Positions 8,919 to 24,527 of a stretch of DNA of 36,708 bases are shown in pieces. The DNA lies in the IMG/VR virus record IMGVR_UViG_3300044766_000037, positions 1-36,708 of that record. One strand, 5' to 3'. The notes beneath the pieces were generated by a model. It did not search any database and was not told the origin of the DNA. It saw only the letters and a program-made list of their open reading frames with translations. The position numbers and the translations under genes are program-made. Each line of letters begins with the position of its first letter. Positions within the stretch are counted from its first letter, which is position 1. The stretch comes from a virus.

Positions 8919-9374
8919 TTATACCTTCATCCACGTTCGACCGGCTTTGAGCCATATGTCTTCAGCTACGAGATGTGAGTACAACTCGTGATAGCAAATT
9001 TGTCTGCAGCTGGTGTTGAGAAGAAGTTTGATGCAGGTAATACATGGAGAAGTCGTAACATAGCATGCGTCGATTTCATGCACGTCACGACACTGCAGCA
9101 ACGCATTCTGTTCTGCATGAATTGCCTGGCATAAATCGAGGTCCTTTCCGCTTTCAGCTTGAGCACCGGTACATGAAAACGGGTATTGTTGTTCCCCAAA
9201 TTTATTTTCTTCATTACAATGCGGTAAGCCAGCCGCCACGCCGTTATAGCCGGTTGACAACACGTGGCCACGAGCATTTAGCAACACGCAACCGACGTGG
9301 CGGCGCAGACAGGTGCTACGTTTCGCAGTTACTGCCGCCATCTCCATTGCCCATTGATCTTTACTTGGTCTCAT
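8919..9374 (-). CDS. dCMP deaminase
   Basis: The 151-residue zinc-dependent cytidine/deoxycytidylate deaminase-family protein shows the catalytic HAEQNAL (His86, Glu88) and PCITC (Cys111, Cys114) zinc motifs, plus GYNG (residues 42-45) typical of dCMP deaminases. It would convert dCMP to dUMP in the cytoplasm. It is the last gene of the minus-strand operon, and its start overlaps the end of the ThyA-family gene by 14 bases. Phage T4 encodes the same activity next to its cytosine-replacement pathway. Here it may feed dUMP to thymidylate synthesis or balance the dCMP pool. Confidence 0.85.
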   Translation of the reverse strand: MRPSKDQWAMEMAAVTAKRSTCLRRHVGCVLLNARGHVLSTGYNGVAAGLPHCNEENKFGEQQYPFSCTGAQAESGKDLDLCQAIHAEQNALLQCRDVHEIDACYVTTSPCITCIKLLLNTSCRQICYHELYSHLVAEDIWLKAGRTWMKV

Positions 9375-10158
9375 AGTACCACCACCTTAATGTCGACGTA
9401 GTTGACGACGTGCGAAGCCGTTCAAGCGCAGTTATTAGGATCGTCGGACTTTGGAAAAATTCAATTGGTGTGTATAGTTGATTATACTTGTATTCACTGC
9501 AGATGCAAGCCTTGGCTTGCTCCCAGTTTTCTTTATATAAATGGCTTGACACCGCCGTCAAATAAAGCAGTCCTGGGTTGTAGTTAGTTTTCCCGCAGTT
9601 GACATAATTCAGCGTTGCGCAAATGTAATGGCTCAACATGCTGAAATTAAACACGTCGTACGGAATGCCGAGCCATACGTCGCTTGAGCGCATAAGAACA
9701 CTGGTATGAAGCACGCCATCACGAATATTGAAGACGAGGCCGATGGTGCATGGTACGTCTTTTGTCTTTGGCGGATTTTCACGCCAGATGGTCATCGCCG
9801 CTTGGCGAGTGTCGCGGTTTTCTAACAGCGTGTTTATAACGTAGTCAAGTTGATCATGGATCCGCGGCCCGTATGCGCCGTAGAACGTTCTGCCGTCATC
9901 ACTAAATTCAGCGATGCGCTTATTAAACGGCGCGATGGTCTCAACGCGATTATCGCCTGAGAGTATCCAATATGCCTCAGCCGCCATGAACTGATAGCTG
10001 AGCTTTCGTTCAGGTATGACCAGCACTGGACGCCTCATATCGACAACGATCGTCTGATGAAGCAGCTCCTTAGTCGTCAGGCCTCGTGGCGTCGTGTTCT
10101 GTCCGTCGCATAAGATGCGGTCTAATAAATGCAACCACTCTTGGTCGAAGTTCTTCAT
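9361..10158 (-). CDS. ThyA-family enzyme, probable dCMP methylase/hydroxymethylase
   Basis: The 265-residue protein has the ThyA core. The nucleophile is Cys137 in DVPCTIG. Exactly 20 residues later, as in E. coli ThyA, comes RSSD (157-160) and then LGIPYDVF. The substrate-base position (E. coli Asn177, eight residues after the RS-D Asp) is Asp168. Asn at this site marks dUMP enzymes, while Asp is found in T4 dCMP hydroxymethylase and in engineered dCMP-methylating ThyA. The His after the catalytic Cys is replaced by Thr138. HLY (206-208) is kept. I therefore favour a dCMP methylase or hydroxymethylase over a plain thymidylate synthase. The start overlaps the kinase stop (ATGA). Confidence 0.8.
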   Translation of the reverse strand: MKNFDQEWLHLLDRILCDGQNTTPRGLTTKELLHQTIVVDMRRPVLVIPERKLSYQFMAAEAYWILSGDNRVETIAPFNKRIAEFSDDGRTFYGAYGPRIHDQLDYVINTLLENRDTRQAAMTIWRENPPKTKDVPCTIGLVFNIRDGVLHTSVLMRSSDVWLGIPYDVFNFSMLSHYICATLNYVNCGKTNYNPGLLYLTAVSSHLYKENWEQAKACICSEYKYNQLYTPIEFFQSPTILITALERLRTSSTTSTLRWWYYETK

Positions 10159-11075
10159 AGAACGCCTTTCAGTTTGAACTGTTGGTATAGTGGAAAATAT
10201 GTGTCAGACTTAAATCGCTTCCAATACTGTGGGTGCTCGATCTTTACTACGGAGTCACACATTGGACGTACTACGTCGTAAGCATTGTCTCCGAAGGCAA
10301 TAATTAGCTTACGCTCGGGCTTGAGAATTTCCTCAAGCGGCTGATCGGCGTTGACCCACGCAATTCGGCTTTCACGAATTTGGAAATTAATTAATTCGTC
10401 AGTCAGCCAACGACTGCAGCCATCGTCGCTGAACGACGCGAACGGCCATTGATAAAATAGATCTTGCTTTTTATGATTGGCGAACTTGTCACCGATCAGC
10501 AGCACCTCGCCCTTCCAATTTCCGGCTGAATTTAAGCTCCATGGATGCCTCAAATATCGGTGCTGGTCGACTGTCTTTAATATTTCGTAGTTCATCTCTG
10601 TGTAGTCATAAGTAATAGACGGCAGGTCGAATTTATCGATGCGGTAAAGATTATGGATTATCTTCATCTGTTTCATCACGTCATAAATAATCCTGCTATG
10701 GCTAGATTTAATGAAGTTTGCCATGACTTCGTCCCAGCCGGGGTCGCAGTAAACTACCACGGCGCCGCATTTCATTGCCAGCCGTTCGAGCATCCGGCAG
10801 TCGGCACGCGTTAAGCGTGAAGTACCTTCACGCAGCACCGCACCATATGGCGCTTCGCTCAACCAACAACGGTCGAATACTACGTCTTGGTATCCCAGGA
10901 GCGCCGGTATCATGGCCTCGGCGTACATCCGTGCCAGGCCTGCACCAACTCGCGGTAGGTCGTTGAAGTGAACCAGTCGTGCATTGGTCTCTTCGGCATA
11001 GCGTATAGCAGCCGTGGTCTTGCCGCTACCATTGCAGCCTTCAAATATTGTCAGCTTTTTGCAGGTGAATAGCAT
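10155..11075 (-). CDS. dNMP kinase fused to a UDG-superfamily-like domain
   Basis: I choose the ATG at 11075 (306 residues), with GGGAG upstream. A longer TTG start at 11180 would overlap the previous gene by 140 bases. Residues ~1-165 are a P-loop nucleoside monophosphate kinase, with Walker A GCNGSGKT (13-20) and the phosphate-binding DRCWLSEAPYG (68-78). Residues ~185-306 resemble a uracil-DNA glycosylase fold: EVLLIGDKFAN, PFASFSDDGCSRWL, IAWVNAD, LIIAFGDNA and HPQYWKRF correspond in order to UDG-superfamily motifs. The kinase would make dNDPs, perhaps of a modified base. The role of the second domain is unknown. Confidence 0.75.
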   Translation of the reverse strand: MLFTCKKLTIFEGCNGSGKTTAAIRYAEETNARLVHFNDLPRVGAGLARMYAEAMIPALLGYQDVVFDRCWLSEAPYGAVLREGTSRLTRADCRMLERLAMKCGAVVVYCDPGWDEVMANFIKSSHSRIIYDVMKQMKIIHNLYRIDKFDLPSITYDYTEMNYEILKTVDQHRYLRHPWSLNSAGNWKGEVLLIGDKFANHKKQDLFYQWPFASFSDDGCSRWLTDELINFQIRESRIAWVNADQPLEEILKPERKLIIAFGDNAYDVVRPMCDSVVKIEHPQYWKRFKSDTYFPLYQQFKLKGVL

Positions 11076-11490
11076 CGTCACGTTGGTTCTCCCTTCTAGC
11101 GGCTTTCGCCCGATAACCATGTTTATGGAGGATCTTCTGAGTCTGAGGACCTTTCCATCCCGGTGGCTTGACGCAATCAACTAGGTGGCCGCGAGGTCCG
11201 ACGCCGCGGACCTTCGTCATATTGGCTCGCTGTACGTCGTCCCAAAGTTCGTCCCACGGAATGCCAAGCATGCATGCCGTGCCCTTGGCGAAGTAGACAA
11301 GATCTATCAGTGCGTCGGCCTGAGCCGCCAGGTCTTGGTTAAACACGGCTTCATTGAACTCTCTAAGTTCTTCATACATGCATTCGAAGCGCTCAACTAG
11401 TTTTCGTTTGGTTAGATGGCCGGGAACGCCGAATTCGAGAATCCCAAATTTTTTGTAGAACGTGCGAACGTCTTCAAGTTCTTTGTCCAT
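11041..11490 (-). CDS. MazG-like nucleotide pyrophosphohydrolase
   Basis: The 149-residue all-alpha NTP pyrophosphatase-like protein has the acidic helix MYEELREFNEA (residues ~39-48) and ADALIDLVYFAKGTA (58-72). WDELWDDVQRANMTKV and a C-terminal KPPGWKGP, usual in phage MazG-like proteins, follow. The family hydrolyses (d)NTPs to monophosphates and pyrophosphate. T4 dCTPase (gp56) belongs to the same all-alpha superfamily. The gene overlaps the methyltransferase stop by one base and the kinase start by 35 bases. In this cassette a dCTP-hydrolysing role is attractive but not proven. Confidence 0.8.
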   Translation of the reverse strand: MDKELEDVRTFYKKFGILEFGVPGHLTKRKLVERFECMYEELREFNEAVFNQDLAAQADALIDLVYFAKGTACMLGIPWDELWDDVQRANMTKVRGVGPRGHLVDCVKPPGWKGPQTQKILHKHGYRAKAARRENQRDDAIHLQKADNI

Positions 11491-12284
11491 TAGAATGACC
11501 TCCGCGGAAGTTTGGCGGTGATCATCTTAGATGGTCGGCGGCAGACCCACAAATTATTGCGGGCATGGTTAGGAAACAACGGCGCGAAGATACAACTGAT
11601 CGCGTCGTTGTCGTAATAAGCACTCAACGCCTTTGCTACTTGCTGCAGCCATACGTGATCGCAACCGGTAGGCGGCAGACCTTTGCCGATATTTTTTATA
11701 TCCATGAACGTACCGAACCGCTTTTCAACTTGGAGCCCGGTTTTTTGAATTAAAGCGCCGAGCTCATCAATTTTCCACTCGTGTATATGATTGGCGGCGT
11801 GCCTCACGCCATCATAGCATGGGGTAGACATGAGCATGATGCCGCCAGGCTTGAGGCATTCATAGCAGGCGTTCATGAACTTCTTGCCGTTGGCAGCGTT
11901 CATGTGTTCAAGCACCTCGAAATGCACCAGCACGTCGTAGCCGCCAGGCCGGAGCTTGAGGAGCTCCTTATACCGCTCGACGAAGTTAAACTCGCTAAGA
12001 AATGTCAGCCGCTGAGATTCAGATGGTTTGATTTTATTGAGGTCGACACCGACGTAGGTGTTCACATGAGCGGCCGCGCCGCCCGTAAGAATTTTAGAAA
12101 GCGGTTTGTCCTCACCACACCCAACCTCAAGCACGTGGTCCTTTGGAGTAATGAATCTTCTGGCAAAGGACCAGCGAAAAAAATGAGCTGAGTAGTCTCT
12201 GGCGAGTACTTTCCCATGACCATGTTCTCGTAATTGTGTGGTGTCATATTCACGAGTGTCGCGTTCTTTCACTCTTCTGATCAT
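11490..12284 (-). CDS. Class I SAM-dependent methyltransferase
   Basis: The 264-residue protein has motif I VLEVGCGEDKP (51-61), an acidic ribose-binding residue in VGVDLN (Asp81), FEVLEHM (122-128), and LKPGGIMLMSTP (~143-154). It is a Rossmann-fold methyltransferase of the Methyltransf_11/25 type. No target-recognition domain is seen. Small molecules, nucleotides, protein or a modified base are all possible substrates. It is the first gene of the nucleotide-metabolism cassette, with AAGGAGA six bases before the start and a strong hairpin directly upstream of that SD. Confidence 0.8.
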   Translation of the reverse strand: MIRRVKERDTREYDTTQLREHGHGKVLARDYSAHFFRWSFARRFITPKDHVLEVGCGEDKPLSKILTGGAAAHVNTYVGVDLNKIKPSESQRLTFLSEFNFVERYKELLKLRPGGYDVLVHFEVLEHMNAANGKKFMNACYECLKPGGIMLMSTPCYDGVRHAANHIHEWKIDELGALIQKTGLQVEKRFGTFMDIKNIGKGLPPTGCDHVWLQQVAKALSAYYDNDAISCIFAPLFPNHARNNLWVCRRPSKMITAKLPRRSF

Positions 12285-12337: not shown

Positions 12338-13015
12338 TTACTTTTTGGCTTCGACGGCGTCTGGCGGGTTCTTTCCGGCTTTCTTGAGGAAATTTCGATA
12401 CCACGCGACGTAGCCGCGCTTTTTCGCGTCAAGACCGTACTTGCCTTGGACCTTGGTGAAAATCTGGTCGTCGGTCAGCTTGCCTTCCATGATCAGATCT
12501 TTGAACAGCTGCGACGCCGATTCGCGTGGCTTGTCGGATTTCTTCGCGGCTGCGGGTTTGGTAGTTTTCGTTGTTTTGGTGGATGACTTGCCTGTTGATT
12601 TGCCGCCTTTTGCCGCCGGCGTCGGGTGAAGCCCTTGGGCTCGCGCCATTCGTTCATTGTCTTTTCTGATTTCGTCTTGGCTCTTCGGCATTTTATACTT
12701 CTCCTTGTTTAAATTTGGAATGATACGCCCGATAAAGTCGAGCGCTTCGTTTGAGATTCTGATGTACTGGCTATATTCGAGAAATGCTTCACAAGCTTTG
12801 CGCGGCGATTGATCTATGAGGAGCTTGTTGTAGTTGTGCTCGAATGGCTCCATCGCGGCGCGTCTCACGACGACGCCGTCTTCAGTTATCGCCAGATATG
12901 TTACAATGCCATCCTTTCGTTCAATTTCAAGGCAGGCATGGCTGTTATGGTCGTGATAAACAAAATAAGAATTTTCAGGTGTCGGTTGTTCGGTGATTTT
13001 GGCTTTTCGCGTCAT
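12338..13015 (-). CDS. Two-part protein with Lys-rich linker and paralogous C-terminal domain
   Basis: The ATG at 13015 has GAGGA eight bases upstream, while the ATG at 13030 has no SD. The ~225-residue product has an N-terminal domain (~1-105; SYFVYHDHNSHACLEIERKDG, IPNLNKEKY) and a Lys/Thr/Ala-rich basic linker (~130-160). Its C-terminal ~55-residue domain (LFKDLIMEGKLTDDQIF ... GYVAWYRNFLKKAGK) also occurs in the gene at 22289-22531. The basic linker and small helical domain suggest nucleic-acid binding, but no family is certain. It is the first gene after a strong promoter at 13060-13088. Confidence 0.65.
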   Translation of the reverse strand: MTRKAKITEQPTPENSYFVYHDHNSHACLEIERKDGIVTYLAITEDGVVVRRAAMEPFEHNYNKLLIDQSPRKACEAFLEYSQYIRISNEALDFIGRIIPNLNKEKYKMPKSQDEIRKDNERMARAQGLHPTPAAKGGKSTGKSSTKTTKTTKPAAAKKSDKPRESASQLFKDLIMEGKLTDDQIFTKVQGKYGLDAKKRGYVAWYRNFLKKAGKNPPDAVEAKK

Positions 13016-13059
13016 TGTCGTAGTCCTCATTAAAATCTCGGCTTTTTATCTTGGACCAT

Positions 13060-13099: not shown

Positions 13100-14584
13100 C
13101 TATTTTTTCATCTTTTTTAGGGCGTCGAAAAGCGCGTTCTGGCCGCGTCGCTTAGACTTCAACGCCTCCAAAATCGCCTCGTCGATGGTATCTTCGGCGA
13201 TCAGATGGTATACAAAAACCCGCTTAGCTTTATTGCCCTGTCGGTGGACACGACGGATGAGTTGGTCATATAGCTCATAGTTCCATGTCAACGAATGCCA
13301 GCAGACATGGCACCCCACTTCTTGAAGGTTCAACCCGTGCGCTACCGCTTGCGGGTGACCGAATAACACCGGCAGTTTGCCCCTATTCCAAAGGTTGACG
13401 AGTTCGTTCGACCGCTTAGCCGAGACGCCGCCACCGATATATGGAATATCGCGTCCGAAGCGCTTGCGCAGCCGGTCTAGGTCGTGCTCGAAGTCGTACG
13501 CCACCAACAGCGGGGCTCCTTGAAGCTCGTCAATTAAATCCTCAAGCGCGTCGATTTTTTCGTTATGAAGATTTACCCATTCACGCTGAGGGTTGTGCAT
13601 CCTTAAAAGTTCGCACATTTCTTGGTCGAGGTATACGCCGCCATTGGCGATCTGGCGGCACTTCATGCTAGCAGCCGCGGCGTTTTTGGCGATGACGTGT
13701 CCTTTAGCAATTTGCGCGAAGAGTTCGTGGTGAACTTGATTATAAGTTTCCATTAAACCAGGCTCAAGGGTGACATGAATATTTTGCTCAATCAGCTCTG
13801 GCATCTCCAAATAATCTTCCGCCGCCATGCGTAGTGACAATGGCTTAATGCGCTCATAAATTTCCTGGTCAGCACCTTCTCGCAGCACCCAATTATAACC
13901 GTCATAAGATTCGGTAAAATACTTCATACGAAAATGCGTGATATAAGGCCCTAATGACCGCCCCTGATCAAGCACAAAACACTGGCCGAATAAGTCAAGC
14001 AGACCGTTCGGCGCCGGGCTTCCAGTTAAGCCCCAGCGCCGGCTGAACGTGCCAAGCGTAAGCTTCAACGCCTTAAATCGGATCGTGTTCGTATGCTTGA
14101 ACTTCGACAGCTCATCTACAACCAAAGTGTCGAAGTCAAGCTTTTTCCATCGCTGCATGTCGAAGTTGACCTTGGTCCGACCGAATTGTGATGTGCTTTT
14201 TTCTGCTTGAAGAAGCCACGATAACCCCTCCGGGTTGATGATATAAATGTCAGCGTCGGCTTTGAGCGCTTCATTTTTCTTAGGTCCGTGAAGCAGGCTG
14301 AACTTCAAACCGGTAAAGTCCTCCCATTTTTTGATTTCCGCCGGCCATACGCTGTAGCATACACGCAGGGGCGCAATCAGCAGAACCTTACTCAGGAGCT
14401 TCCGCTGTTTGAGAAACTTAATCGCAGCCAGCGCAATTGATGTTTTGCCAAGTCCCGGATCGAGGAAAAGCGCCGCGGCGGCATGCTCTAAAAGGAACTT
14501 GAGCGACTTCTTCTGGTACTTATGAGGAGCCCAGGGAATGGCCTCTAGAATGACATCAGACGCAGGAATCAATGATTTATGCAT
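13100..14584 (-). CDS. SNF2-family (SF2) helicase/translocase
   Basis: The 494-residue protein shows SF2 motifs in order: Walker A DPGLGKT (42-48), motif Ia LLIAPLRV (68-75), DELS in place of DEAD/H (157-160), LTGSPAPNG (186-194), and a C-terminal lobe with GHPQAVAHGLNLQ and QLIRRVHRQGN (motif VI). It is an ATP-driven DNA translocase, probably supporting replication or recombination. Such helicases commonly accompany VRR-NUC nucleases and family A polymerases in phage replication modules, as here. Its spacing from the VRR-NUC gene is 39 bases. Confidence 0.85.
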   Translation of the reverse strand: MHKSLIPASDVILEAIPWAPHKYQKKSLKFLLEHAAAALFLDPGLGKTSIALAAIKFLKQRKLLSKVLLIAPLRVCYSVWPAEIKKWEDFTGLKFSLLHGPKKNEALKADADIYIINPEGLSWLLQAEKSTSQFGRTKVNFDMQRWKKLDFDTLVVDELSKFKHTNTIRFKALKLTLGTFSRRWGLTGSPAPNGLLDLFGQCFVLDQGRSLGPYITHFRMKYFTESYDGYNWVLREGADQEIYERIKPLSLRMAAEDYLEMPELIEQNIHVTLEPGLMETYNQVHHELFAQIAKGHVIAKNAAAASMKCRQIANGGVYLDQEMCELLRMHNPQREWVNLHNEKIDALEDLIDELQGAPLLVAYDFEHDLDRLRKRFGRDIPYIGGGVSAKRSNELVNLWNRGKLPVLFGHPQAVAHGLNLQEVGCHVCWHSLTWNYELYDQLIRRVHRQGNKAKRVFVYHLIAEDTIDEAILEALKSKRRGQNALFDALKKMKK

Positions 14585-14935: not shown

Positions 14936-15630
14936 TGGCCGCCTCCAGCTGCCTTGTTAGAATGACGGTAAAAGCACCAGATGCATTTGTTGTTCGGCCG
15001 TGGCGCGAAGCGCTTGTCGTTGAGCATCGCGCGAGTACGCTTCAACCACGTCTGTTGGAGCGCCGGAAGCTGGTCACGGTAAAACGTCATCGGGTATTCA
15101 GCCTTGGCGTCAAGATAGAGCAGCGTGGCATTTATTCGTTTGACTTCCGGGTACAACAGAAAGCCGGCTAGCGCATAGAGCTCGAGTTGTTCAGTATACA
15201 TGGTCGCGGCTTCCTCGACCCTGAACTTCCCGGTTTTCCAATCGTAAATGTCCATTACACCTTTTGTGATCTCAGCGCAATCGACTTTGACCCGCAGCCA
15301 ACACTCGGCCCAATCATTCCATACCGTCCGGCTCCAATCTTTTCTGAAAGCCCATGATTCCTCGATGATCAGCGCTTTGCCGGCTTTGACCCTATTTCGT
15401 AAAACCACGAACAGGATTTTGTATTTCACCAGCTCTGGCGGCAGCTTAACAATGACTCCCCTGAGATAGTCGCGGGCCAGGTCGTGGATCCCGGCTCCAC
15501 GGGCCATGGCCTCATTAGGCGGCTCTGCGATCTTGTCTAAATGTTTAAGTTTTGCCTTAAGCGGGCAAAGAATATAGTCAGAATAACGACTGAATGACCA
15601 TGCGAAAATCATTTTCAATTTTTTGAACAT
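14923..15630 (-). CDS. Cas4/RecB-like PD-(D/E)xK exonuclease with Fe-S type cysteines
   Basis: The 235-residue protein has Cys22 near the N-terminus and three C-terminal cysteines (216, 219, 233), the arrangement that binds a 4Fe-4S cluster in Cas4 and AddB nucleases. Catalytic-core candidates are GIHD (His49), KVD (Asp117), DWKTGK (Asp130, Lys132) and the QLELY motif (148-152). It is probably a replication/recombination exonuclease. There is no CRISPR array nearby, so a CRISPR role is not indicated. AAGGAGAACT precedes the ATG, and the gene overlaps the DNA polymerase end by 16 bases. Confidence 0.8.
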   Translation of the reverse strand: MFKKLKMIFAWSFSRYSDYILCPLKAKLKHLDKIAEPPNEAMARGAGIHDLARDYLRGVIVKLPPELVKYKILFVVLRNRVKAGKALIIEESWAFRKDWSRTVWNDWAECWLRVKVDCAEITKGVMDIYDWKTGKFRVEEAATMYTEQLELYALAGFLLYPEVKRINATLLYLDAKAEYPMTFYRDQLPALQQTWLKRTRAMLNDKRFAPRPNNKCIWCFYRHSNKAAGGGQCRY

Positions 15631-17534
15631 AGTTCTCCTTTTTTGTCATAATCTTTTAGCTCATTCCAGTTTGTGCTAGAAATTGAACCCTCAGACAGCA
15701 TCGGCAAATCAAATTCTACAGACTCCATAGTAGAGCGCAGCATCTCCATTACAGGTTTCAACTGACGTTTCGGTGCCGACACCATTTCTTCATCATGCAC
15801 GCTGAGGATCATCTTCCAAGACGAATCACGAACGTCGTTGAACCGGATAATAGCTTCTTTGGTGCAGTCGGCCGCGGAGCCTTGAATAAGTACATTAACC
15901 AATTTGTAGTCATATTTCTGAATGCGACCGTTCTTCACCTGAGGCTCTTCGCAATAATATTCTCTTCCGCCCCAGGTGCGAATCGGCTCATGGGCCTCAG
16001 CCCGACGCCTCATTTCTTGATACATCGCCTTCAGACCAGGGTACAACGACAACACAGCTTTTTTCAGCATTGCCGCTTCATCAACCGCCATGTTGTTCTT
16101 CATAGCTAACTTGCCAACGCCCATCCCATATAAAAGCCCGAAGTTGGTATTTTTTACCGGCTTGCGATCGTAACGAAGCCCCATCTTTGCCAATTCTTTT
16201 TGGGCGTATTCATGCACATCCATCCAATTGTCTTCTTGGTAGCGCCTGAGCAATGCGCCGCCATCGAAGTGAGCTAAGATTCGCAGTTCTTGCTGAGAGT
16301 AGTCACGATCGACTAATACCTCGCCTTTAAATGGAGTAATATAACTACGTATCATCGGAAGTGGTAGAAGTCCGCTGATTGGACATTTCGGCAGCTTTAA
16401 CTTCGGCGCCTCATGATAAAAGATCGGCGCAAACTCCTTAGGGATATTTTGAAAATTCGGCGTAGATGACAACCGTCCTGTACGAGTACCTACGTTAGAA
16501 TCGCCTTGTGGCGTCTTAACCTGATTCCACGTAGTATAAATGAGGCCATTTGAGGCCTCAGCCGTTTCAAGCCATGGCAACATAAACGTGCTCATGCACG
16601 TCTTCAACTGCGCCCGATATTTCAGCACCGCCAGTAGGTACTTGTCGGTAATTCCCAGAATGAGCGCTTCCTTATTGGTTTGATACTTGCCGGTAGGGGT
16701 GCGAGGCAGCAGCTCTGGCTCTACTTTTCCGGCTTTGATCATCGCCTCTACTAACTGAGGCCCGGAGTCTAAGTTGGCCCTTGTGTTTCGCAACTGGCTT
16801 CGAATCCAACGGTCAATCTTGAGTTGAATGCCGCCGTACATCATCACGTCATTATGAAGCCGCTTCAGATCGACAGATACGCCGCGACGCTCCATGTCGA
16901 GCAGGATCGGCATTAATCGGCGCTCACGATCGTAAGCTTCGAGCATGCCGCGCTTACCGTTCGACTTATGAAGCTTCTCGAACAGCTTCTCAGTCCGAAT
17001 CACGTCGCCGTTGGCATATTCAGCCACTAAGCTCCCTGGGGCGTATCGGATATACTTCATAAAATAATGATCAGATTCAGGAGAACGACTGATCTTAACA
17101 CCGCGAACAGGTTGCTTCTCGATCAGCCAGTCAGCTACGGCGTCGCGCTCCGCGGGTTTCATGCCGAGGATTCGCTCAGCCGAGGGCTTCAATGACAAGC
17201 TGGTCTGATGCGGGTCGTCAAGAAATAAATGAAACATTGTATCATGATATGACGCCCAATGAAGACGCGGCATTTTGAAGAACGTCTCAGCCACGTCAAC
17301 GTCAAATTTCCCATTTTGAAAAAGCAAGCCGTCATAATCGTCTTTCCAAATCCTAAAGAGCTCTCGCCGCGCGTCTTCTTTAGTGCAGTTGTTTTCAGAC
17401 TCATGTCCAAAGGCAAAATAACGGGCATTGCTTCCTGGCAACTTAATGCTGACACCTACCGGCCGCGGCGGATAACTCGGCCGCGGCTCGATGGCGTCAG
17501 TTTCGAAGTCCACTACGATCGGTTCTGGTTTCAT
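15615..17534 (-). CDS. Family A DNA polymerase with 3'-5' exonuclease domain
   Basis: The 639-residue protein has a proofreading domain (Exo I VDFETD with Asp9/Glu11; Exo II NGKFD, Asp78; Exo III YANGD, Asp177). The polymerase domain follows: TRTGRLSSTPNFQNIP (~351-365), motif A DRDYSQQELR (Asp411), motif B RKPVKNTNFGLLYG (Arg457, Lys461, Phe465), and motif C VHDEE (579-583). It lacks a 5'-3' exonuclease domain, as usual in phages. Phe465 corresponds to Phe762 of E. coli Pol I. It is the replicative polymerase. GAGGA lies upstream of the ATG. Confidence 0.95.
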   Translation of the reverse strand: MKPEPIVVDFETDAIEPRPSYPPRPVGVSIKLPGSNARYFAFGHESENNCTKEDARRELFRIWKDDYDGLLFQNGKFDVDVAETFFKMPRLHWASYHDTMFHLFLDDPHQTSLSLKPSAERILGMKPAERDAVADWLIEKQPVRGVKISRSPESDHYFMKYIRYAPGSLVAEYANGDVIRTEKLFEKLHKSNGKRGMLEAYDRERRLMPILLDMERRGVSVDLKRLHNDVMMYGGIQLKIDRWIRSQLRNTRANLDSGPQLVEAMIKAGKVEPELLPRTPTGKYQTNKEALILGITDKYLLAVLKYRAQLKTCMSTFMLPWLETAEASNGLIYTTWNQVKTPQGDSNVGTRTGRLSSTPNFQNIPKEFAPIFYHEAPKLKLPKCPISGLLPLPMIRSYITPFKGEVLVDRDYSQQELRILAHFDGGALLRRYQEDNWMDVHEYAQKELAKMGLRYDRKPVKNTNFGLLYGMGVGKLAMKNNMAVDEAAMLKKAVLSLYPGLKAMYQEMRRRAEAHEPIRTWGGREYYCEEPQVKNGRIQKYDYKLVNVLIQGSAADCTKEAIIRFNDVRDSSWKMILSVHDEEMVSAPKRQLKPVMEMLRSTMESVEFDLPMLSEGSISSTNWNELKDYDKKGELCSKN

Positions 17535-21779: not shown

Positions 21780-22117
21780 GGTATCTCCTTTTCTTCCGGC
21801 AGGCCGGCAGACCGCATAGCAGCGCGAATCTCAGCGATCGACCGGTGCGGAAAGTGGTTCATAAGAAGATCGAGCACGCAGCCGTCGACCGCCGACAATT
21901 CCTGGGTATCAGCGTGTCGGTAGACATCAGAGATAAGAAGCACCAAGTCGTCGGGGTTGATAAGGTCTCGCGGCTCTGACGCCTCAAGCAGATGCGAGTT
22001 CAAATCAGTGGCGACGGCGTCGGCATCTGATTTACGAGGAATCGTGCTGACGACGACGCGGCCGTTATACATAACAGCGTATCCAGTTTCGTAAGTGACT
22101 ACAGAGTATTTTTTCAT
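21773..22117 (-). CDS. Unknown early protein (114 aa)
   Basis: GGGGGGAG lies ten bases upstream of the ATG. The N-terminal ~45 residues (YSVVTYETGYAVMYNGRVVV, then RKSDADAVATDLN) look like a small beta-hairpin plus helix module of a kind common in phage accessory proteins. The C-terminal half is helical and acidic. The start overlaps the stop of the 22114 gene (ATGA). No function is assigned. Confidence 0.55.
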   Translation of the reverse strand: MKKYSVVTYETGYAVMYNGRVVVSTIPRKSDADAVATDLNSHLLEASEPRDLINPDDLVLLISDVYRHADTQELSAVDGCVLDLLMNHFPHRSIAEIRAAMRSAGLPEEKEIPC

Positions 22118-22287
22118 CGGTAAAACTCCCCCCTTCTAAGAAGTTCGTCAGTGACGGCGTTGGCGTAAGCTTTCACGCAAGCCAGGATATACCACACGAT
22201 CAGGAAAAAAATCGCCGGGAGCCAAGCGCCTGAGCAGGCGCAACCGATAGTCGCGAAAAGAGAAACGACACACATAAAAGATAACAT
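22114..22287 (-). CDS. Small membrane protein (57 aa)
   Basis: I choose the ATG at 22287, seven bases after AGGCGG, rather than the in-frame ATG at 22305, which lies inside the previous gene. The product has two hydrophobic stretches (~2-17, MCVVSLFATIGCACSG region; ~20-36, WLPAIFFLIVWYILACV) and a charged tail (VTDELLRRGEFYR). It is a second small membrane protein in the early operon and may modify the envelope or exclude other phages. The family is unknown. Confidence 0.5.
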   Translation of the reverse strand: MLSFMCVVSLFATIGCACSGAWLPAIFFLIVWYILACVKAYANAVTDELLRRGEFYR

Positions 22288-22288
22288 A

Positions 22289-22531
22289 TTATGCCGCCTT
22301 TCCATTGCGGATCATCTCAGCGCGGTACCAACCAGGATAAGATTTTTTAGAATCGGGGAGGTTGAATTTGATCTTTGCGACTTCGAAGATTTGCTCGTTC
22401 GTGCGGCCCTCGCGTATCAGCTGGCGCATAAATGAAGAGACGGAGACTTTTTTCGGGGCAGCAGCTCTAAACGCGACCGCAACTTTTTTTATTGATTTTT
22501 TAACAGCGGACTTCTTCGTTGACTTTTTCAT
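22289..22531 (-). CDS. Lys-rich small protein with paralogous domain (80 aa)
   Basis: AAGGAGAATCAA precedes the ATG at 22531, so the in-frame upstream ATG at 22582 is less likely. Residues 1-30 are extremely Lys/Ser/Ala-rich (MKKSTKKSAVKKSIKKV). Residues ~30-78 (SFMRQLIREGRTNEQIF ... SYPGWYRAEMIRNGK) match the C-terminal domain of the 12338-13015 protein at about 18-20 of 50 positions. A basic tail plus a small helical domain suggests DNA or RNA binding. It is the first gene after the promoter at 22589-22617. Confidence 0.65.
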   Translation of the reverse strand: MKKSTKKSAVKKSIKKVAVAFRAAAPKKVSVSSFMRQLIREGRTNEQIFEVAKIKFNLPDSKKSYPGWYRAEMIRNGKAA

Positions 22532-22588
22532 TTGATTCTCCTTTTTAGTTTCAAGTTTTTCGTTGCTAGTGTTTTTGTTCATAAGAAG

Positions 22589-22617
22589 ATTCTACCTCAG
22601 CTTAAAGTGGATGTAAA
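22589..22617 (-). promoter_or_regulatory. Sigma70-type promoter, TTTACA-17-TAGAAT (second copy)
   Basis: On the minus strand -35 TTTACA (22612-22617) and -10 TAGAAT (22589-22594) are separated by 17 bases, exactly as at 13060-13088. The two also share TG directly before the -35 box. It lies in the 64-base gap before the next gene start region and would transcribe the early operon from the Lys-rich gene at 22531 onward. Confidence 0.75.
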
Positions 22618-22646
22618 CAATTATTTATGTGAAAACGCATTATTTT

Positions 22647-23213
22647 TTAAGTGCCCTTAAGCTCTTTCTTTTCAAGCTCTTTGAGCCGTTTATATAAAAG
22701 ATGTGTCCCAAATATATCAAGTAAGTGATCAAGTGGTGGCGTCCCTTGCTCAGAATCCCAAGTAGATTCATTAACGTACAACATCTCGCCGTTGCGTGTA
22801 TAAATTTGAAAACTGCCGTCGGAGCTGGTCATTTTTTTCTTAAGCGCTTGCGGCGACTTCATGCCGGCTATGACTACCGCTTCTAATAATGAATAGTAAC
22901 CGTCTAAGTTTTCAGGCGGCTCGTGATACACGTGGTAATATGTTTCCGGCTTAGCGGGTTTTTCTAAGACTTCTTTTGTGAGAATGATAAATTTGGTGGG
23001 GTTCTTAGGATTTTTAAATTTCGTAATGCCGTTATCACGAATCAGGTAAGACATCACCGTGTTTACGCTTTTACCGACCGACTCAGCGGCGGCTTTATAG
23101 TCATTAACGATTAATTCACGCCCGTTGTCCCAGGTAAGCCGTAGTTGAACGAGCTTTTTCTTCCAACTGCCTTTCTGGTGTGTTATTGGATTTTGCTTTA
23201 ATAATTTTGACAT
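22647..23213 (-). CDS. Putative early DNA-binding protein (188 aa), paralogue of neighbour
   Basis: Residues ~15-80 (QLRLTWDNGRELIVNDY, then AAESVGKSVNTVMSYLIRD and KFKNP) match the neighbouring gene at 23222-23566 over about 64 residues. The segment around AAESVGKSVNTVMSYL has the look of a helix-turn-helix. The C-terminal half is different and contains YYSLLEAVVIAGMKSPQALKKK, another possible HTH, and a polar tail. GAGGA lies before the ATG. It is the second gene of the early operon, which suits a regulator, but the DNA-binding role is inference. Confidence 0.55.
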   Translation of the reverse strand: MSKLLKQNPITHQKGSWKKKLVQLRLTWDNGRELIVNDYKAAAESVGKSVNTVMSYLIRDNGITKFKNPKNPTKFIILTKEVLEKPAKPETYYHVYHEPPENLDGYYSLLEAVVIAGMKSPQALKKKMTSSDGSFQIYTRNGEMLYVNESTWDSEQGTPPLDHLLDIFGTHLLYKRLKELEKKELKGT

Positions 23214-23221
23214 ATGGTCCT

Positions 23222-23566
23222 CTATGACGGTATCAATTTAAAAGAATCAGAAATTTTTGTGATAGTAATAATTTCTGATCCATTTGGATTTTGAAATTTT
23301 ACTGACCCGCCTTGTCGATAAATATATAATGCTAAAGTCTTAGCTTTTTTACCGACATATTTTGCGGCGACTTCATAGTCATCAGTAGTTATTTCACGCC
23401 CGTCGTCCCAAGCTACTTTAAGGTGTGACCGTTTAATTTTCCAACTATCTTCAGATTCTGCTAAAGGTGCCGTTGGTTGGTTTAATGCGCTAATTTTTTC
23501 AATAGCTTGTTGGCGTTGTTTTTTTGGTAAAGCTTTTAAAATTTGACTTAATGCTAAGTTGTCCAT
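23222..23566 (-). CDS. Putative early DNA-binding protein (114 aa), first early gene
   Basis: AAAAGGAGATAAT precedes the ATG. After a helical N-terminus (LSQILKALPKKQRQQAIEKI) the last ~70 residues (HLKVAWDDGREITTDDY, AAKYVGKKAKTLALYIYR, VKFQNP) are paralogous to the next gene. The pair probably arose by tandem duplication. As the first gene transcribed leftward from the divergent control region, it is a candidate early regulator or nucleic-acid-binding protein. No named family is recognised. Confidence 0.55.
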   Translation of the reverse strand: MDNLALSQILKALPKKQRQQAIEKISALNQPTAPLAESEDSWKIKRSHLKVAWDDGREITTDDYEVAAKYVGKKAKTLALYIYRQGGSVKFQNPNGSEIITITKISDSFKLIPS

Positions 23567-23582
23567 ATTATCTCCTTTTAAG

Positions 23583-23610
23583 TTTACGAAATTATCAATA
23601 TTTATAGAAT
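23583..23610 (+). promoter_or_regulatory. Candidate rightward promoter, TTTACG-16-TAGAAT
   Basis: -35-like TTTACG (23583-23588) and -10 TAGAAT (23605-23610) are 16 bases apart on the plus strand. The -10 box is identical to the two strong minus-strand promoters. It could drive the terminase-to-tail operon with a ~360-base leader containing the inverted repeats. The AT-rich context makes chance matches more likely, so confidence is low. Confidence 0.35.
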
Positions 23611-23665
23611 ACTACAAATTTAGATTCTTGTACACCGCGTTGCCCCATCATTTTACTGACGCTGG

Positions 23666-23835
23666 AAAAATACAGATACAGAAAAAAGGACCAAGGTTCT
23701 CTAGATATACCTGCTTATTGAAATAAATAATAATAATATTGTTCCTTAGTATCCTATCTATATATTATTATTTATTTTGATAAGCAAAAGCAGCCAGCTA
23801 ATATAGACGGCCCTTTTACTGTACTCTGTATTTTT
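23666..23835. repeat. Nested long inverted repeats in the divergent region
   Basis: The outer arms AAAAATACAGATACAG (23666-23681) and CTGTACTCTGTATTTTT (23819-23835) are complementary apart from one inserted base. The inner arms 23713-23735 and 23763-23785 pair at 21 of 23 positions around a 27-base AT-rich loop. The stretch between the arms is only partly complementary. Such structure fits an origin, a regulatory RNA or a terminator between divergent promoters. No iteron array is visible. Confidence 0.7.
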
Positions 23836-23972
23836 TAAAATGACATCAAAATGCTATGTACTTTGCGCTTTGCTTATGCTAGGTCATTGTTCCCACCCAT
23901 AATAATGATTTTAAAATGATGTATACACGTTCTATGGTGTAGATCTATAGTTCGTGGCATAAGGAGATTGTA

Positions 23973-24527
23973 ATGGCAGCAAGGACCGGCAAGCACGCGG
24001 GCGGAAGACGGACAAAAGGTGGTGAAAAAACAAGCCCGACTTTTGTACTGCTTCGCGTCAGCAAAGTTGCGGAGATGTACCTTACTGGTATGTCAATGAT
24101 AGCAATTGGGCGTGAGCTAAAAGTCAGCGCTGTGACAGTATACCGTGATCTTCAAACTGCTCACGAACAATGGCGCACTAAAGCTAGTGAGAATATTGAA
24201 AAGCTCAAGCAGAACGAACTCAGTCATGTCGATTGGGTAGAGATGGAGGCGACTAAGGCGTGGTATCGCTCAGTTGGGCTGCATAAAAAGACCATCTCTA
24301 AAGAGGGAACGTCGCCCGGCGACAATGGAGGCGCATATGAGGAAACTGTCGAGCATGCCGAAGAGCTTGCCGGCGATCCGCGGTTTCTTGACGTCATTAA
24401 TAAGAGCATCGACCAGCGTTGTAAGATCATGGGGCTTATCGCCCCGATTAAGTCTACGGTATCTAACCCTGACGGCAGTCCGCTTCTGACTGGGATAAAG
24501 GTGGTTGAAGTTGGCCGCACAGCTTAA
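23973..24527 (+). CDS. terS: Terminase small subunit
   Basis: The 184-residue protein has a helix-turn-helix (VAEMYLTGMSMIAIGRELKV, ~32-51, then SAVTVYRDLQ) and a helical oligomerisation region, followed by a linker and a C-terminal tail. Small subunits recognise packaging DNA and load the large subunit. AAGGAGA lies six bases before the ATG. The gene overlaps TerL by about 20 bases. HTH, size and position immediately before TerL make the assignment firm, although small subunits diverge strongly. Confidence 0.85.
   Translation: MAARTGKHAGGRRTKGGEKTSPTFVLLRVSKVAEMYLTGMSMIAIGRELKVSAVTVYRDLQTAHEQWRTKASENIEKLKQNELSHVDWVEMEATKAWYRSVGLHKKTISKEGTSPGDNGGAYEETVEHAEELAGDPRFLDVINKSIDQRCKIMGLIAPIKSTVSNPDGSPLLTGIKVVEVGRTA

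Follow-up and report, generated by a model that had tools for sequence, protein, structure and literature searches.

A five-gene cassette of small phages predicted to replace cytosine with 5-hydroxymethylcytosine, and its methyltransferase partner

The window analysed here is the whole of a 36,708-base virus record (IMG/VR record IMGVR_UViG_3300044766_000037), and its subject is a cassette of about 3.4 kb at 8919-12284: five minus-strand open reading frames (ORFs), each overlapping the next (Table 1). A preliminary description had read them as a methyltransferase, a MazG-like pyrophosphohydrolase, a deoxynucleoside monophosphate (dNMP) kinase fusion, a ThyA-family enzyme and a deoxycytidylate (dCMP) deaminase, and had likened their logic to cytosine replacement in phage T4. 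ORF positions, Pfam and PHROG matches and the fold of the kinase confirm the five overlapping genes and their families. The central finding concerns the ThyA-family enzyme, which has the active-site residues of a dCMP hydroxymethylase. With its partners, it would probably replace cytosine by 5-hydroxymethylcytosine (5hmC).

Table 1. Coordinates of the cassette and of other features (positions are those of the window unless a locus is named)
Feature	Position	Strand	Length and matches
dCMP deaminase (zinc cytidine/deoxycytidylate deaminase family)	8919..9374	-	151 aa; PF00383 1.8e-18, phrog_174 1.4e-35
ThyA-family pyrimidine hydroxymethylase, predicted dCMP hydroxymethylase	9361..10158	-	265 aa; PF00303 2.4e-22
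TMK/YorR-like dNMP kinase with C-terminal domain	10155..11075	-	phrog_761 (thymidylate kinase) 5.7e-11
Separate C-terminal domain of the kinase	about 10155-10553	-	~130 residues
MazG/PRA-PH-type all-alpha nucleoside triphosphate (NTP) pyrophosphohydrolase, candidate dCTPase	11041..11490	-	149 aa; PF01503 3.3e-14
Class I S-adenosylmethionine (SAM) methyltransferase, UbiG/Hen1-like (ExxEH motif), candidate 5hmC modifier	11490..12284	-	264 aa; PF13489 2.7e-13
SNF2/DEAD-type helicase, replication module	13100..14584	-	PF00176 3.5e-19, phrog_62 6.5e-142
Family A DNA polymerase	15615..17534	-	PF00476 1.7e-55
Proteins with a common C-terminal domain	12338-13030 and 22289-22582	-	phrog_17205
Low-G+C stretch	22001-24000		G+C 0.40
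Short ORF in kinase slot	L003:5597-5998		
Short ORF in kinase slot	L022:5621-6001		
Short ORF in kinase slot	L049:338-637		
Short ORF in kinase slot	L054:5739-6014		

Aligned to E. coli ThyA, the ThyA-like protein has the superfamily fold and the catalytic residues Cys137, Glu61 (the equivalent of Glu58), Arg157 and Asp160; its best match in the Protein Data Bank (PDB) is the CMP 5-hydroxymethylase MilA (3.7e-20). The preliminary description had placed an aspartate at the position that selects between deoxyuridylate (dUMP) and dCMP, and this was borne out: Asp168 aligns with E. coli Asn177. A second aspartate, Asp134, lies three residues ahead of Cys137. In E. coli numbers the window enzyme thus has Asp134 at 143, Cys137 at 146, Thr138 at 147 and Asp168 at 177. 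Among reference enzymes, residues 143, 147 and 177 are Leu, His and Asn in thymidylate synthases (E. coli, CC31 td), Asn, Pro and Asp in the Xp12 relatives AXL1 and DoCa6, Asp, Asn and Asn in enzymes of the 5-hydroxymethyldeoxyuridine (hmdU) type (M6, SPO1L1, GG32), and Asp, Thr and Asp (D/T/D) in T4 dCMP hydroxymethylase gp42. The window enzyme is D/T/D. Because this set matches gp42 and differs from the other reference groups, the predicted product narrows to 5-hydroxymethyl-dCMP made from dCMP, a prediction that is well supported. For T4, the proposal is that the aspartate at position 143 (Asp145) turns the pterin so that hydride transfer is avoided, and brings in the water that hydroxylates the methylene intermediate (PMC6400193). 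In the experiments of the MetaGPA study, no two positions separated cytosine-modified from unmodified phage contigs better than 177 and 147 (PMC8670742). The window enzyme also retains Arg126 and Ser167, marks of deoxynucleotide enzymes; in MilA, an enzyme with a preference for ribonucleotides, Lys and Ala take their places (PMC5175136).

Two other identities were rejected on the same residues. A thymidylate synthase would have Asn177, His147 and Leu143, and the window protein scores below all NCBIfam thymidylate synthase cut-offs; a dUMP hydroxymethylase, with Asn177 beside Asp143, is ruled against by Asp177. In a phylogenetic tree the window group forms its own clade with 100% ultrafast bootstrap. 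T4 gp42 falls outside it, on a very long branch whose placement is uncertain. The C-termini align poorly, and the last residues of E. coli ThyA have no counterpart in the window protein.

Folate chemistry offers a second line of evidence: hydroxymethylation gives back tetrahydrofolate (THF), and methylation gives back dihydrofolate (PMC6400193). A search aimed directly at dihydrofolate reductase (DHFR) found none in any cassette record searched, the window included, whereas AXL1, a candidate maker of 5-methylcytosine (5mC), encodes one beside its ThyA gene. This absence is only mild support for a hydroxymethyl product: a DHFR match is present in T4 too, and phages of the T4 type encode a thymidylate synthase of their own. 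ThyX, sought directly, is absent from the window and present in 15 cassette records, and the ThyA-like enzyme is therefore not the thymidylate synthase of those phages. The preliminary description had left the product as 5-methyl- or 5-hydroxymethyl-cytosine; Asp134 and Thr138, and mildly the missing DHFR, favor the second and speak against the first.

The cassette recurs well beyond this record. With the ThyA-like protein as query, 80 viral loci were recovered; five further regions, taken from records of isolated or assembled phages, and the window itself bring the total to 86. The D/T/D set runs through all 85 relatives, one having Ser at 147; the selector aspartate and Asp143 are present in 85 of 85. 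Partners, always on the same strand, are the deaminase (73 loci), methyltransferase (70), MazG-like protein (67) and kinase (62), counts that are lower bounds since many contigs are truncated, and that come from loci chosen by similarity and so not independent. All the kinases and 72 of the 73 deaminases lie within 1 kb of the ThyA-like gene, as do 67 of the 70 methyltransferases within 2.5 kb. The five-gene block is not a product of chance. Three cassette contigs of 34-54 kb (L174, L175, L176) sit within metagenome-assembled genomes named Lentisphaera, Chromatiales and Betaproteobacteria and look like phages binned with their hosts; the genes of the first are laid out as in IMG/VR locus L104.

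The deaminase keeps its zinc motifs (HAE and PCxxC) throughout the 73 loci. In the MazG-like protein the metal ligands of MazG/PRA-PH all-alpha NTP pyrophosphatases, EExxE and a downstream Asp, are present, and E40, E41, E44, D59 and D63 are invariant across 67 loci. The kinase begins either at a TTG (10155-11180) or, likelier, at the ATG used in Table 1, which agrees with the lengths of its relatives. Its match is weak in Pfam (TMK 0.027) and clear in PHROGs, and its AlphaFold2 (AF2) model (mean confidence, pLDDT, 89) is matched in Foldseek by YorR (3kb2) and thymidylate kinases. The fusion proposed earlier holds, with the C-terminal residues forming a conserved domain of their own. That domain weakly resembles uracil-DNA glycosylases: PF03167 is matched in 4 of 20 family members (best 2.6e-4). 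The window copy gives no PF03167 match, and no convincing PDB match was found for the domain. It would be unusual for a nucleotide kinase to be fused with a domain that recognises bases. At some loci without a kinase, short ORFs fill the slot before ThyA (Table 1), some weakly matching DUF1599, "nucleotide modification associated domain 1" (E 0.03-0.06), and others DUF6378.

In a tblastn search the cassette methyltransferase (METHYLTRANSFERASE) matched 5 of 50,697 phage records, all five with the cassette, although at least 2,170 of the same records encode a ThyA-family protein. A wider search gave 84 methyltransferase loci, with a selector-Asp ThyA linked in 76: in 73 it lies within the fetched stretch and in 3 elsewhere in the record (DxPCT plus selector Asp). 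Of the eight loci that remain, five are on contigs 4-14 kb long. The methyltransferase is also the better conserved protein, 65-66% identical to the copies in AXL3, PW916 and MW202621 versus 53-57% for the ThyA-like enzyme (53-55% for AXL3 and PW916). NCBIfam matches are to UbiG (1.4e-8) and Hen1 (8e-5), both O-methyltransferases; the Hen1 score is 21 bits against a cut-off of 340, and UbiG likewise has an ExxEH motif. E123xxE126H127 and H166 are invariant in 44 homologues. In HEN1 the ExxEH set and a later histidine bind a metal that holds the acceptor hydroxyls (PMC10781085), and H166 may be the counterpart of that histidine. The AF2 model (pLDDT 91) does not name a substrate because Foldseek returns only generic class I methyltransferases at a template-modelling (TM) score of about 0.5. 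A DNA-base methyltransferase was considered and rejected: inspection by eye showed neither a DPPY nor a C5-type motif, and none of the DNA-methylase families in Pfam was matched. Since a methyltransferase of hydroxyl-directed kind nearly always accompanies the predicted maker of 5-hydroxymethyl-dCMP, it is a good candidate hypermodifier.

From the genes, their catalytic residues, the residue signature, synteny and this near-exclusive partnership we infer a pathway in which cytosine would be replaced at the nucleotide level, before replication. The MazG-like enzyme would hydrolyse deoxycytidine triphosphate (dCTP) to dCMP, keeping ordinary cytosine out of DNA and supplying substrate. The ThyA-family enzyme would then convert dCMP and methylene-tetrahydrofolate to 5-hydroxymethyl-dCMP and THF, and the TMK-like kinase would phosphorylate the product towards the triphosphate used by the phage DNA polymerase. 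Surplus dCMP would pass through the deaminase to dUMP, feeding synthesis of thymidine triphosphate (dTTP), and the methyltransferase inherited with these genes may take the hydroxymethylated product as its substrate, perhaps through O-methylation of the 5-hydroxymethyl group. The 5hmC pathway itself, with 5hmC predicted in virion DNA, is judged likely. Replacement of cytosine at the nucleotide stage is well supported. Methylation of the modified base or nucleotide is the least certain step, and its chances fall a little short of even. Its most specific form, in which the enzyme O-methylates 5hmC in DNA or as a nucleotide, giving this widespread phage group a base new to phage DNA (5-methoxymethylcytosine or another methylated hydroxymethyl base of that kind), is rather unlikely. 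No mention of methoxymethylcytosine together with phage was found in the literature searched.

An experimental anchor comes from the Stenotrophomonas phage AXL3, which has the same genes in the same order: gp27 deaminase, gp28 ThyA, gp29 kinase, gp30 pyrophosphohydrolase and gp31 methyltransferase. Of 37 restriction enzymes tried on its virion DNA, the 35 whose recognition sequences include G/C all failed to cut, and only TasI and Tru1I succeeded, at sites made up of A and T alone (AATT and TTAA); from this the AXL3 authors concluded that there may be some alteration of G/C bases (PMC7504290). The labels "thymidylate synthase" for gp28 (locus L083) and "deoxyuridylate hydroxymethyltransferase" for the protein of Pseudoxanthomonas phage PW916 (L084) conflict with the selector aspartate, and by their residues both look like dCMP enzymes.

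Two readings compete with hydroxymethylation of dCMP. The enzyme could be a dCMP methylase, as in phage Xp12, and the DNA could carry 5mC: Asp177 alone makes thymidylate synthase a dCMP methylase, according to the account of earlier work cited in PMC8670742, and the Xp12 relative AXL1 has a similar deaminase-ThyA-pyrophosphohydrolase run and a digestion pattern like that of AXL3. At the other two positions, however, AXL1 and DoCa6 show Asn143 and Pro147, and the tree places them with thymidylate synthases (99%), apart from the window clade, which shares Asp143 and Thr147 with T4 gp42 and lacks DHFR in the cassette records searched. An Xp12-type identity was rejected on these grounds, and 5mC is improbable. 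Less probable still is that the cassette merely supplies nucleotides by the ordinary thymidylate (dTMP) pathway (dCMP to dUMP to dTMP to thymidine diphosphate, dTDP), as AXL3 and PW916 are annotated and as the AXL3 authors read it. Every enzyme family is compatible with that pathway on paper, but Asp177, Asp143 and a residue other than His at 147 are unlike thymidylate synthase, the 15 cassette records mentioned above also have ThyX, and AXL3 DNA resists enzymes with G/C sites.

A third alternative concerns the last step only: 5hmC is made and stays as it is, and the methyltransferase acts elsewhere, on tRNA, an RNA end, a small molecule or a host protein. This is quite plausible, if somewhat short of an even chance. 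The relatives of the enzyme in sequence and fold are diverse (UbiG, Hen1, N-methyltransferases), so the acceptor cannot be read from them, and three records of 38-59 kb (L146, L154, L172) have the methyltransferase with no ThyA detected; its presence in just the five cassette-bearing records among 50,697 and its closeness to the ThyA-like gene point the other way. Several points also weigh against 5hmC replacement as a whole. The position-143 rule comes from a handful of characterised enzymes or close relatives, the activity of the window clade is itself predicted, and the substrates of the kinase and the MazG-like enzyme are guessed from context. The AXL3 restriction pattern does not discriminate between 5hmC, 5mC and a derivative. 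Neither a glucosyltransferase nor a carbamoyltransferase could be recognised in the window, and 5hmC would therefore stay undecorated and exposed to type IV restriction unless it is modified by the methyltransferase or by an unrecognised gene.

Compared with known systems, the cassette has the same set of steps as T4 (gp42 dCMP hydroxymethylase, gp56 dCTPase, gp1 dNMP kinase and cd dCMP deaminase). The "T4-like" of the preliminary description thus stands for logic and fails for descent: the window enzyme shares its three residues with gp42 but is distant in sequence and lies in its own fully supported clade, and the TMK/YorR-like kinase and PF01503 pyrophosphohydrolase are set apart from gp1 and gp56 by family match only. 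T4 has glucosyltransferases where the window has a methyltransferase, and its genes are scattered in 169 kb, whereas the five window genes are contiguous in a 36.7 kb record. AXL3 and PW916 share the window's gene order and signature and differ from it in siphovirus morphology and in also encoding ThyX. MetaGPA phages with 5-carbamoyloxymethylcytosine likewise have Asp177 ThyA, PRA-PH and dCMP deaminase domains, which co-occur on cytosine-modified contigs (PMC8670742). Those phages have a 5hmC carbamoyltransferase; the cassette records instead have the methyltransferase as constant partner, and carbamoyltransferase PF02543 was found in 0 of 46 cassette records, window included, ruling it out as the further modifier. 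The Xp12-type 5mC phages (Xp12, AXL1, DoCa6) share Asp177 and a deaminase adjoining ThyA, but they have Asn143 and Pro147, DHFR nearby in AXL1 and no homologue of the cassette methyltransferase. The hmdU-making phages (M6, SPO1, Vi1-like) share the hydroxymethylase feature Asp143 and differ in Asn177 and Asn147, which suit a uracil-type substrate. The D/T/D set also occurs in ThyA-family proteins of L182 (phage G), L183 (AB434P2), L185 (DSL-LC01) and L186 (ctIqW946); these, some annotated as thymidylate synthase, may be dCMP hydroxymethylases.

Elsewhere in the window, the helicase lies upstream of the cassette in most relatives too, and the modified dCTP would enter DNA through the family A DNA polymerase. 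When the remaining ORFs of some size were compared with Pfam and PHROGs, no glycosyltransferase, DHFR, ThyX or TET-like enzyme came to light. The earlier label "podovirus-like" is supported by a portal of the P22 kind and by a DNA-ejection protein. Two proteins share the short domain phrog_17205, which occurs in at least two copies near the cassette in many relatives. The low-G+C stretch (about 0.5 elsewhere), at the junction of the early block on the minus strand and the late block on the plus strand, is a possible promoter or origin region.

Already published are the T4 logic and, from MetaGPA (2021), the finding that ThyA-Asp177, PRA-PH and dCMP deaminase domains occur together in cytosine-modified phages. 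New here are the signature that narrows the product to 5-hydroxymethyl-dCMP (well supported for 5hmC), the five-gene block with its near-exclusive methyltransferase, the link to the restriction-resistant DNA of AXL3, the separation from T4 by descent and the absence of carbamoyltransferase from the cassette records; further methylation of 5hmC is speculative. If the proposal is right, cytosine replacement would be a portable module in small phages, beyond the large T4-like viruses, and three residue positions would predict from sequence whether a ThyA-family enzyme yields dTMP, 5mC, 5hmC or hmdU. It would also explain why AXL3 DNA resists restriction, and would correct the "thymidylate synthase" label in that phage. 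A specific candidate enzyme would be named as the likely source of a new DNA base, with a phage isolate at hand, and if it does O-methylate 5hmC, the methyltransferase would fill the place held by glucosyltransferases in T4 and by carbamoyltransferases in the MetaGPA phages.

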